Under the pieces are notes generated by a model that was not told the DNA's origin, ran no database searches, and worked only from the letters and a program-made list of their open reading frames with translations. Made by a program: the position numbers and the translations under genes. DNA of 11,407 nt. It comes from an uncultured Micrococcales bacterium. Lineage in GTDB: Bacteria > Actinomycetota > Actinomycetes > Actinomycetales > Microbacteriaceae. Shown here one piece after another: positions 5,338-7,492 of this stretch (the first letter of the stretch is position 1; every line of letters begins with the position of its first letter). The stretch spans positions 1 through 11,407 of the forward strand of contig CAIPNT010000173.1 in assembly GCA_903866485.1 (NCBI GenBank). Direction: 5' to 3'.

Positions 5338-6681
5338 CTACTGTTTCATATTCATGAAGCGAGAGTATTGACCCTGGAACCCAACGGTGACCGTGCCGGT
5401 TGGACCCGAGCGCTGCTTTGCCAGAATGATGTCTGCCTCGCCATTGCGCGGGTGGTCTTTTTCACCGATGCCTTCGCGGTGCAACAGGATGACGACGTCG
5501 GCGTCTTGCTCAAGCGAGCCCGATTCGCGAAGGTGCGAAATCTCGGGCTTTTTGTCTTTGGTTTGTTCGGCTTGACGGTTTAGCTGCGACAGCGCAATCA
5601 CCGGCACTTGCAACTCTTTTGCCAATAGTTTCAGCGCTCGAGAGAACTCGCTCACCTCTTGCTGGCGAGACTCCACCTTCTTGCCTGATGTCATCAACTG
5701 GATGTAGTCGATGACGATCATCTTTAGGCCAACGCGCTGTGCCAATCGACGGCACTTGGCTCGAATCTCAACCAGCGTGAGGTTTGGGCTGTCATCAATA
5801 AACAGGGGAGCGTCATTGATTTGACCGCGAACTTGGGCTAGGCGCGACCATTCGGCGTCGCCGATGGTGCCTTTTCGCATGCTCTGCAGATAAATGCCAG
5901 ACTCGGCCGAAAGCATTCGCATTGCGATTTCGGCACGACCCATTTCTAGTGAGAAGAAGATGGTTGGCTTATTGGCCTTTAGCGCCGCATGACGAGCAAA
6001 GTCGAGGGCGATGGTCGACTTTCCGACTGCCGGTCTAGCGGCCACGATGATCAGCTGGCCCGGGTGAAAGCCGTGGGTTAGCTCATCAAGCTCGATAAAG
6101 CCGGTTGGCACACCAACCATCTCGCCGCCGCGCTTTTGAGCCGACTCAATCTCGTTGATGGCGGCCTCGATCGAGACGCTCAAACCGACATAGTCTTCGG
6201 TGGTGTTGCCAACACCCACCGAATAAACCTCGGATTGGGCTTCGTTGACCAGGTCTTCTACGTCGCCTTCGTTGGCATAGCCAAGTTGAGCAATCTTGGT
6301 GCCAACCTCAACCAAACGGCGAAGAGTTGCCTTCTCTTGCACGATCTTGGCATAGTAGGCCGCGTTGGCAGCGGTAGGCACGATTGAGGTTAGGGTGTGC
6401 AGGTAATCTGCCGAACCAGCCTTGACCAGGTTGCCCTGCTTCATCAGCTCGTCGGTAACGGTGATCACGTCAATTGGCTCACCCTTGCCAAATAGTGTGG
6501 CAATGGCCTCAAAAATCAGCTCGTGCTTTGGCGCATAGAAGTCGCCACCTTTTACGTTTTCAAAGACTTCGGCGCAGGCCTCTTGCGACAGTAGCATGCC
6601 GCCGATGGCGCTCTGTTCGGCCAGCATGTCATTAGGCAGCATTCGCTCGCTCGGGCGGCTCGCCTGATCGATCATCGACAT
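5338..6681 (-). CDS. dnaB: Replicative DNA helicase DnaB
   Basis: 447 residues, full length for DnaB. The N-terminal domain (about 15-115) begins PNDMLAEQSAIGGMLL and mediates hexamer and primase contacts. A linker (about 120-185) leads to the RecA-like ATPase domain: Walker A ARPAVGKST (215-223), FFSLEMG (242-248), Walker B MIVIDYIQLM (321-330), SQLNRQAE (365-372), RESGSLEQDADVV (385-397) and the C-terminal KQRSGPTG with the arginine finger. The 5'-3' helicase unwinds DNA at the fork and recruits DnaG. No intein is present, unlike some actinobacterial DnaB. The ATG at 6681 has AGGAG six bases upstream. The gene is cut off from rplI by a terminator and preceded by a DnaA-box cluster, so its transcription may respond to DnaA. 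Two membrane genes follow, spaced four and nine bases apart. Confidence 0.97.
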   Translation of the reverse strand: MSMIDQASRPSERMLPNDMLAEQSAIGGMLLSQEACAEVFENVKGGDFYAPKHELIFEAIATLFGKGEPIDVITVTDELMKQGNLVKAGSADYLHTLTSIVPTAANAAYYAKIVQEKATLRRLVEVGTKIAQLGYANEGDVEDLVNEAQSEVYSVGVGNTTEDYVGLSVSIEAAINEIESAQKRGGEMVGVPTGFIELDELTHGFHPGQLIIVAARPAVGKSTIALDFARHAALKANKPTIFFSLEMGRAEIAMRMLSAESGIYLQSMRKGTIGDAEWSRLAQVRGQINDAPLFIDDSPNLTLVEIRAKCRRLAQRVGLKMIVIDYIQLMTSGKKVESRQQEVSEFSRALKLLAKELQVPVIALSQLNRQAEQTKDKKPEISHLRESGSLEQDADVVILLHREGIGEKDHPRNGEADIILAKQRSGPTGTVTVGFQGQYSRFMNMKQ

Positions 6682-6759
6682 AAAGACTCCTAAATTACGC
6701 GCTACCTATGAAGGTACCTGTCTATCAAACAGGTCGGACATCGAAGTTCCAAACCTGCC
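6682..6759. other. dnaB leader segment with alternating AGGT/ACCT inverted repeats
   Basis: No gene is seen here. Short complementary segments alternate: ACCT at 6704, AGGT at 6712, ACCT at 6716, AGGT at 6731 and ACCT at 6754. ACCTG/CAGGT (6716-6720 with 6730-6734) and CAGGT/ACCTG (6730-6734 with 6753-6757) are mutually exclusive pairings in the mRNA leader. The dnaB Shine-Dalgarno AGGAG is at 6688-6692. Regulatory meaning is speculative. Confidence 0.3.
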
Positions 6760-6961
6760 TGTGGATAACTTTGTGGACAACACGCCGGACACGCCCGAAA
6801 AACTGTTAGCAACTTGTGGATAAGCCTGTGTAGCAATTGTGGAATTATCGAGAAATACCTGTAACTACAGGGGTTCTAGCCTGTGGATAAGTATTAACAC
6901 TCAACCCTAAACCTTCACCTCAAGGTTGTGGATAACGCTGTGAAATGCGAGGTTTTCCACA
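6760..6961. promoter_or_regulatory. DnaA-box cluster upstream of dnaB
   Basis: Four perfect DnaA boxes (TTATCCACA on minus; TGTGGATAA on plus) lie at 6760-6768, 6815-6823, 6882-6890 and 6927-6935, all in the same orientation. One-mismatch boxes are TTGTCCACA at 6772-6780 (minus, the form usual in Streptomyces and mycobacteria) and TTTTCCACA at 6953-6961 (plus). A given 9-mer is expected far less than once per window by chance, so six in 200 bp is not accidental. The cluster may regulate dnaB, titrate DnaA, or belong to an origin. No strongly AT-rich unwinding element stands out, which weakens the origin reading. Confidence 0.9.
6844..6871 (-). promoter_or_regulatory. Candidate dnaB promoter -10 with adjacent palindromic operator
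   Basis: CCTGTA-AC-TACAGG (6858-6871) is a perfect 6-2-6 inverted repeat. Eight bases downstream on the minus strand is GATAAT (6849-6844), five of six to the -10 consensus. The palindrome covers where the spacer and part of the -35 would lie, and no good -35 is present, fitting an activator- or repressor-controlled promoter. The transcript would have about 155 nt of leader before dnaB. No known regulator is recognised. Confidence 0.4.
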
Positions 6962-6979
6962 GGTGTAAAACGCGGTTAA

Positions 6980-7009
6980 AGCAAAACGGGCCGCCCGAAG
7001 GCGACCCGT
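6980..7009 (-). terminator. Intrinsic terminator of the rpsF-ssb-rpsR-rplI operon
   Basis: On the minus strand ACGGGTCGCC, a TTCG tetraloop and GGCGGCCCGT form a 10-bp stem (arms 7009-7000 and 6995-6986, one U-G pair) followed by TTTTGCTTT. The UUCG loop adds stability. It lies about 31 nt past the rplI stop and separates the ribosomal operon from dnaB. Confidence 0.9.
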
Positions 7010-7021
7010 TTCACGTGAAAC
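7008..7021. promoter_or_regulatory. parS centromere-like site (ParB binding)
   Basis: GTTTCACGTGAAAC is a perfect 14-bp palindrome identical to the core of the bacterial consensus parS, TGTTTCACGTGAAACA; the two outermost bases differ (C and T here). In this system ParB dimers load at parS near the replication origin and, with ParA and SMC, segregate chromosome copies. The site sits between the rplI stop and its terminator and shares two bases with the terminator stem. It marks the region as origin-proximal. Confidence 0.92.
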
Positions 7022-7039
7022 TTTTGTAAAGCTCGAGCC

Positions 7040-7492
7040 TTACTTCTTGCCAACTACCTGAAGGGTGATGGTTGCCACTACGTCGCCGTGCAGACGAACG
7101 GTAGCTAGGTGCTCACCAGCAACCTTGATAGGTGCAACGAATGCAATCTTGCGCTTGTCTAGCTCGCCTAGGCCAGCGGCTGCAACTGCAGCTGCGACAT
7201 CAGCGGTCTTGACGGCACCGAATAGACGGCCGCCCTGGCCAGCCTTGACGATAAGTCGAACTGACTTAGCCTCAAGTGCAGCCTTTAGAGCGTGTGCGTC
7301 TTCAACGGTTGCTAGGGCACGAGCGTCGCGAGCAGCCTTGATTGACTCAATCTGCTTCTCGCCACCCTTGCTCCATAGAACAGCAAAGCCACGTGGCAAT
7401 AGGTAGTTACGAGCGAAGCCGTCCTTTACCTCAACAACGTCGCCTGCAGAGCCGAGGCCTGAAACCTCATTGGTCAGAATTAGCTTTGACAT
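7040..7492 (-). CDS. rplI: Large ribosomal subunit protein bL9
   Basis: 150 residues, normal bL9 length. The N-terminal RNA-binding domain starts [31 protein letters not shown] with the conserved Gly and [13 protein letters not shown] block; a long helix (about 45-75) connects to the C-terminal domain (about 78-147) containing [13 protein letters not shown]. bL9 binds domain V of 23S rRNA near L1 and helps maintain reading frame. AAGGAG lies upstream of the ATG. It is the last gene of the four-gene operon, 11 nt after rpsR, and is followed by parS and a strong terminator. Confidence 0.97.

Follow-up and report, generated by a model that had tools for sequence, protein, structure and literature searches.

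A phased array of DnaA boxes upstream of dnaB in an uncultured Micrococcales bacterium, conserved in its family and probably a DnaA-controlled helicase promoter

Results and Discussion

The intergenic region in front of the replicative helicase gene dnaB in the window (the whole stretch of DNA analyzed here, 11,407 bp) carries an array of six DnaA boxes, which probably represents a DnaA-controlled dnaB promoter, at which DnaA would activate transcription rather than repress it. The boxes, their orientation, their spacing, their conservation in relatives and their linkage to dnaB are read directly from the DNA. From these we infer that DnaA binds the array in this organism and regulates dnaB, presumably in the positive sense. 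Control of dnaB by DnaA is the best reading of the data as a whole, as it explains the linkage of the boxes to dnaB, their orientation, the promoter geometry in most high-GC relatives and the results published for mycobacteria.

DnaA-box array in the rplI-dnaB gap

The genes ssb, rpsR, rplI and dnaB follow one another in this order on the minus strand of the window; their names come from sequence recognition, and all four served as tblastn queries. The dnaB open reading frame (positions 5338-6681, minus strand), for which relatives were found, encodes a replicative helicase of 447 aa, and rplI (7040-7492, minus strand) encodes the 50S ribosomal protein L9. The 358-bp gap between them contains all six boxes, five lying in the direction of dnaB and one against it. 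The box proximal to dnaB, TTATCCACA (6760-6768, minus strand), and the next one, TTGTCCACA (6772-6780, minus strand), are the downstream and upstream halves of a double box, TTGTCCACA-AAG-TTATCCACA, with a 3-bp gap and 12 bp from start to start. Three more TTATCCACA boxes occupy positions 6815-6823, 6882-6890 and, as the distal one, 6927-6935 (all on the minus strand), and the box of the opposite orientation, TTTTCCACA, is situated at 6953-6961 of the plus strand. All six were located by motif scan, the TTATCCACA boxes being additionally evaluated with shuffles, and both halves of the double box as well as the distal box are invariant in a five-sequence alignment of close relatives. The preliminary description of this DNA had named four perfect TTATCCACA boxes together with TTGTCCACA and TTTTCCACA between rplI and dnaB, and all of these were found at 6760-6961; as to the orientation, the four perfect boxes do point the same way, and TTTTCCACA is opposed to the other five.

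The window has four perfect TTATCCACA boxes, whereas its 200 dinucleotide shuffles contained 0.01 on average and never four. With at most one mismatch to TTWTCCACA, seven matches were found in the whole window (shuffle mean 4.47; 33 of the 200 shuffles reach seven), six of them inside the 202 bp at 6760-6961. Since the one-mismatch total is not exceptional, the signal consists in the perfect boxes and their clustering. Chance or base composition as the source of the array was ruled out by the shuffles and by the reversed-motif controls given below. A small gene in the gap was also considered and rejected, as the open reading frames there comprise just 20-44 aa.

Conservation and spacing of the boxes

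Near-consensus boxes (TTNTCCACA and CTRTCCACA) were counted in the 600 bp upstream of dnaB, the reversed motif serving as a control. The family-level set (n = 169) comprised the window and the named loci (the window plus the best 80 of 179 loci, i.e., 81, minus L067 with too little upstream DNA, so that 80 were used), the 29 best loci of the family search, and 60 further family genomes, hand-picked, in most cases a single genome of few contigs per genus; this selection covered 89 of the 148 other family genomes that gave a match. The boxes, whose conservation in relatives the preliminary description had proposed to check, proved to be kept upstream of dnaB: at least two of them occur in 138 of the 169 loci (78/80 named, 22/29 family-best and 38/60 further; control 0/169, i.e., none in each set), and at least one in 166 (80/80, 28/29 and 58/60; control 10/169, i.e., 2, 4 and 4). 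Their orientation is strongly biased, with 473 boxes lying in the direction of dnaB (295, 67 and 111 in the same three sets) and 43 against it (26, 5 and 12). These figures come from samples that are not independent, many of the loci belonging to close relatives, with 167 of the 169 upstream sequences being distinct.

Outside the family, 53 loci of the class set (n = 65: 5 + 20 searched loci and 40 picked to span families) displayed at least one box and 27 displayed two or more (control 5 and 0), 68 boxes being oriented with dnaB and 21 against. In other classes of the phylum (n = 23, the 24 best-scoring loci minus one with too little DNA) the corresponding numbers were five and two (control 1 and 0). 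Given the presence of boxes across the class loci and their rarity in other classes, the site appears to be characteristic of the class and to reach its most elaborate form in this family. Loci without a near-consensus box in the 600 bp, which count against DnaA control of dnaB, number 3/169 at the family level (L116, L203 and L240), 12/65 in the class outside the family and 18/23 in other classes.

The distances between boxes of the same orientation cluster at 10-12, 21-23, 31-35, 43-46, 54-57 and 65-68 bp and onward. The 547 family distances of at most 140 bp are fitted best by a period of 11.15 bp (R 0.85, compared with 0.43 at 10.5), and 90% of them, non-independent owing to shared ancestry, fall within 0.15 period of multiples of about 11.15 bp, against 30% expected. 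Class loci beyond the family yielded just 19 distances, and these fit the 11-bp ladder weakly (47% vs 30%; best period 10.65). A partner box at -12 with at least 7/9 matches accompanies the proximal box in 61/81 loci of the rest of the family, in 35/39 of the Curtobacterium set and in 15/46 of the low-GC set, which includes the window; the last, low proportion of strong double-box partners is a point against DnaA control of dnaB.

Just upstream of the double box, at 6779-6787 of the window, there is an CGGCGTGTT block conserved in many family loci. In high-GC relatives this block is about 10 bp more distant, as if one whole helical turn had been gained or lost.

Linkage of the boxes to dnaB

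In 15 of the named loci, dnaB is not adjoined by rplI. Three of these, whose contigs stop within 580 bp, were set aside (they also have boxes); in the other 12, rplI is located 9.8 kb off in one locus and is absent from the 2.6-10 kb examined in eleven. All 12 possess at least two boxes within 360 bp of dnaB, so that the boxes as a by-product of rplI adjacency are unsupported. Similarly, in the class set 46 of 65 loci lack rplI in the approximately 1-1.5 kb examined upstream; a box is nevertheless present in 40 of them.

The dnaA-dnaB distance was compared with the box number in 51 of the 61 genomes with a dnaA position, the remaining ten having no fetched upstream locus. Of 48 distances computed, 39 amount to 15-24 kb (two of the three genomes without a computed distance lie at about 17 and 16 kb). 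The nine farther ones, 27.6, 29.2, 39.3, 40.7, 51.0, 53.2, 77.3, 453 and 565 kb, are accompanied by 2, 4, 4, 3, 2, 3, 0, 3 and 4 boxes, respectively. The 77-kb genome without boxes (G015) is 0.93 Mb in size, and two genomes with an ordinary distance (G007 and G016) have none either. The two extreme cases, G148 and G001, in which rplI still adjoins dnaB, belong to one genus (g2) and may reflect a single event, the other genomes falling in the range of 15-77 kb. With three and four boxes retained at 453 and 565 kb, oriC closeness as the source of the boxes is unsupported as well. By these sequence comparisons, the boxes go with dnaB rather than with rplI or oriC.

The same distances bear on the suggestion, made in the preliminary description, of a datA-like titration site, i.e., that the array soaks up DnaA soon after initiation, similarly to datA and oriC-proximal clusters, and that its position at dnaB is incidental. 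The prevalence of dnaA-dnaB distances of 15-24 kb means that the array is usually copied early; it contains up to seven perfect boxes (L043) and rivals the dnaA/oriC clusters in 4/6 single-contig genomes, and for E. coli both the enrichment of boxes near oriC and titration have been reported (PMC12371093). Most relatives do have dense high-affinity boxes near oriC; how far the window lies from oriC is hidden by its fragmented assembly. However, the array follows dnaB and not rplI or oriC, and the number of boxes does not drop with distance, eight of the nine genomes beyond 25 kb having at least two. Furthermore, a titrating site needs no fixed promoter offset, yet most high-GC relatives show one (see below). 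Titration as the primary role is therefore judged quite improbable; as a by-product it is conceivable, and titration may take place alongside dnaB control, but the array persists without closeness to oriC.

Promoter geometry and the sign of regulation

With offsets counted from the first base of the last (proximal) box, a TTG at +15 to +17 followed, after a 16-18-bp spacer, by TANNN[TA] was found in 58/81 loci of the rest of the family and in 37/39 of L069-L107, which are mostly Curtobacterium (shuffles 0.1 each). Thus, in most high-GC relatives the double box sits just upstream of the -35 element. In the low-GC set, the window included, the pair occurs at this offset in 0/47 loci, which counts against DnaA control of dnaB and led us to reject the high-GC geometry for the window's own set; the TTG alone is at its offset in 14/47 loci (shuffles 2.6), and TANNN[TA] occurs at +38 to +41 in 2/47 (shuffles 7.1) and at +44 in 20/47. 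The scan of positions 6600-7100 of the window revealed no canonical or consensus sigma-70 promoter. With neither a consensus promoter nor the high-GC geometry in the low-GC set, the promoter of the window is a candidate only: its putative -35 element is TTGGAA (6747-6752, minus strand), whose offset of +16 from the proximal box start matches the TTG of the high-GC promoter, and its putative -10 element lies at 6719-6729 of the same strand, where TTTGAT (+39, a 17-bp spacer from TTGGAA) overlaps TAGACA (+44).

The following mechanism may be envisaged. The double box with its 3-bp gap, adjoining the core promoter, would act as an anchor, from which the additional co-oriented boxes at multiples of about 11 bp would let DnaA, probably in the form of ATP-DnaA, extend upstream co-operatively. 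Small changes in active DnaA would thereby alter dnaB transcription strongly, and through this steep response the helicase supply would be matched to initiation. Activation is favored over repression by the position of the anchor, immediately upstream of the -35 element in most high-GC relatives.

The same promoter might also work with the opposite sign, DnaA repressing dnaB so that an excess of active DnaA halts helicase synthesis. The low-GC set has a -10-like TAGRGT some 17 bp past the distal box, a spacing that would put this box over a -35 element; in the window this motif is a conserved TAGGGT at 6904-6909 of the minus strand (T26 in 74%, A27 in 74% and G28 in 70% of 43 low-GC loci). DnaA is also known to repress dnaA in several bacteria, the binding of DnaA at its own promoter and autoregulation being documented (PMC8203912). 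Against this, the anchor is located upstream of the -35 element, not over the promoter, in most high-GC relatives, and an M. tuberculosis mutant with weaker DnaA binding is reported to make less dnaB, not more (PMC7738170). Considering these facts, we regard repression as unlikely.

Among the three roles proposed in the preliminary description, the dependence of helicase supply on DnaA is the one best supported: number, orientation and spacing of the boxes are kept, the boxes follow dnaB, and in most high-GC relatives a promoter abuts them, as predicted from sequence. A point against such control is that the array is bigger than a simple activator site requires. A more elaborate version, offered tentatively and with low confidence, is an orisome-like gauge, in which an ATP-DnaA oligomer would form on the box ladder as at oriC, the output being helicase transcription and not unwinding; the 11-bp lattice itself would be under selection, boxes being gained or lost in whole steps, and the device would couple replication start to helicase supply across much of the class, a ParB site having joined it in the clade of the window.

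A longer block that follows the distal box, GTTATCCACAACCTTNAGGT...TTTAGRGTT, which holds the -10-like TAGRGT, was observed at 6904-6935 of the window and at homologous places in many of the loci L028-L068 and L109-L113, being conserved in a large part of the low-GC set.

Origin of replication in the host genome

The source assembly is a draft of 1.08 Mb (192 contigs, completeness 67%) with 14 perfect boxes in all: four at dnaB, three on the dnaA/dnaN contig (C38) and seven single ones on seven other contigs, the neighbors of which were compared and a common theme was not found. On C38, dnaA is followed by open reading frames resembling dnaN, recF and gyrB, and the boxes are located upstream of dnaA and between dnaA and dnaN. 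The dnaA-dnaN region includes a 40-bp stretch with a GC content of 12.5%, whereas the minimum over 40 bp in the dnaB gap is 35%. A loose DnaA-trio-like pattern, NANx3 (after PMC8287927; the strand convention is not settled, and both readings were tried), is present beside a box at dnaA-dnaN and absent at dnaB, which is weak evidence given the shortness of the pattern. By its sequence, the host genome has an ordinary-looking oriC between dnaA and dnaN. The array at dnaB was examined for the same traits and is not beside dnaA/dnaN, is without an AT-rich unwinding stretch and is without trios by the loose pattern.

Another role proposed in the preliminary description was that of a relocated or second origin; a piece split off from oriC was considered along with it. 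The box density of the array is comparable to that of an oriC, and in one relative (G010) the minimum of the cumulative GC skew lies at -13.5 kb, closer to dnaB (-16.6 kb) than to dnaA, on a flat plateau. The GC skew is nevertheless no proof of the origin position, being flat in G010 and noisy in another relative (G092); only the purine skew agreed with dnaA-dnaN, its minima (+2.7 kb in G010 and +1.0 kb in G092) both falling there. Together with the oriC-like region with boxes and a low-GC stretch in the same genome and, as a weak indication, the position of the NANx3 pattern, this makes a second origin extremely improbable, and the proposal was abandoned in view of the ordinary-looking oriC and the array's lack of an AT-rich unwinding stretch.

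In six single-contig relatives, clusters of at least three perfect boxes (gaps of at most 300 bp) were confined to dnaA/oriC and dnaB, in contrast to the equal density at unrelated loci that the preliminary description had considered. The dnaB cluster is present in four of the six (G010, G013, G092 and G095); G059 and G030 have no three-box cluster and one perfect box each at dnaB. One additional box pair each elsewhere in the genome was noted in G095 and G059.

Comparison with published DnaA sites

Clusters of DnaA boxes in Streptomyces have reportedly been described by Smulczyk-Krawczyszyn and others. For M. tuberculosis, one of the five regions most enriched with purified DnaA is located upstream of dnaB; in M. 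smegmatis, ChIP-seq recovered the five homologous regions, DnaA being bound upstream of dnaB in vivo, and in M. tuberculosis the DnaA I282T variant shows less binding upstream of dnaB, dnaB being under-expressed (PMC7738170). The earlier statement that no such site is described at dnaB in this group may hold for the family, while DnaA binding at mycobacterial dnaB is published. The mycobacterial site resembles that of the window in the gene, in the phylum and in the link of DnaA to dnaB expression; the relevant section of that report (PMC7738170) does not say how many boxes there are, how they are phased or how they relate to the promoter, and the window has six boxes, five of them co-oriented on an 11-bp ladder. 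In Caulobacter crescentus, DnaA boxes are predicted upstream of dnaB, which belongs to the regulon responding to delayed dnaA transcription (PMC8203912); the predicted boxes are a likeness, but the phylum is distant and no such array is described in the corresponding part of that paper. In view of the mycobacterial and Caulobacter reports, DnaA control of dnaB is of an already known kind, and the additions made here are its breadth, phasing and promoter geometry. In the open-licence literature searched, no account was found of a phased array at dnaB, nor of its breadth.

In E. coli, DnaA in vivo prefers paired boxes 2-3 bp apart, comparable to the 3 bp in the proximal pair of the window; single pairs are described in the accessible text of that study (PMC11317965), and here there is a longer ladder. 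The E. coli datA and oriC-proximal enrichment (PMC12371093) is similar in that the array is box-rich and oriC-proximal in most genomes checked here; unlike datA, the dnaB array is linked to a gene and, for the majority of high-GC relatives, also to a promoter, and two genomes from a single genus retain it at a large distance from oriC.

If the preferred reading, a DnaA-controlled dnaB promoter, is true, a promoter read by DnaA would have been kept through much of the class and after a half-megabase move away from oriC, and the matching of helicase supply to initiation would become a testable rule beyond the usual model bacteria. The box lattice would offer natural variants for studying DnaA oligomers on double-stranded DNA away from oriC. 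Moreover, a box-rich region near oriC need not be an origin or a titration site, which matters for origin prediction from box clusters.

parS-like site and additional observations

Between rplI and the boxes, 46 bp from the array, an exact copy of the parS-like palindrome GTTTCACGTGAAAC is located at 7008-7021. It is one of four exact copies in the genome, the other three lying on one contig together with open reading frames resembling gidB, parA and parB. Its 14-bp core fits the Corynebacterium glutamicum consensus TGTTNCACGTGAAACA, the outermost bases being different, and a one-base variant in L030 fits the core of the same consensus (PMC7022226). By sequence it is a near-exact parS palindrome, and thereby a putative ParB site. 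Exact copies of GTTTCACGTGAAAC, 2-7 per genome, occur in each of the 15 single-contig relatives searched. At dnaB, among four close relatives, it is exact in L029 and L031 and has one change in L028 and L030. An ancient association of the parS-like site with the boxes found no support, since among 97 loci with rplI upstream it is exact only in the window (identical to L108), L029 and L031; the wider parS pattern used for these 97 gaps overlooked one-base variants, for instance the one in L030. The copy at 7008-7021 overlaps a GC-rich stem resembling an rplI terminator, noticed by eye and not reported by the promoter/terminator scan.

Two more observations concern dnaB in other lineages. In genus g89 of family f5, which has large genomes, all ten loci (L156, L157, L253, L257-L259, L262, L264, L267 and L268) carry TTSTCCACA at about -345 to -370 together with an opposed TTATCCACA 35 bp nearer to dnaB. 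Finally, many actinobacterial dnaB frames (about 650-1550 aa) gave two-piece matches with a break at approximately residues 190-228, as inteins would give.
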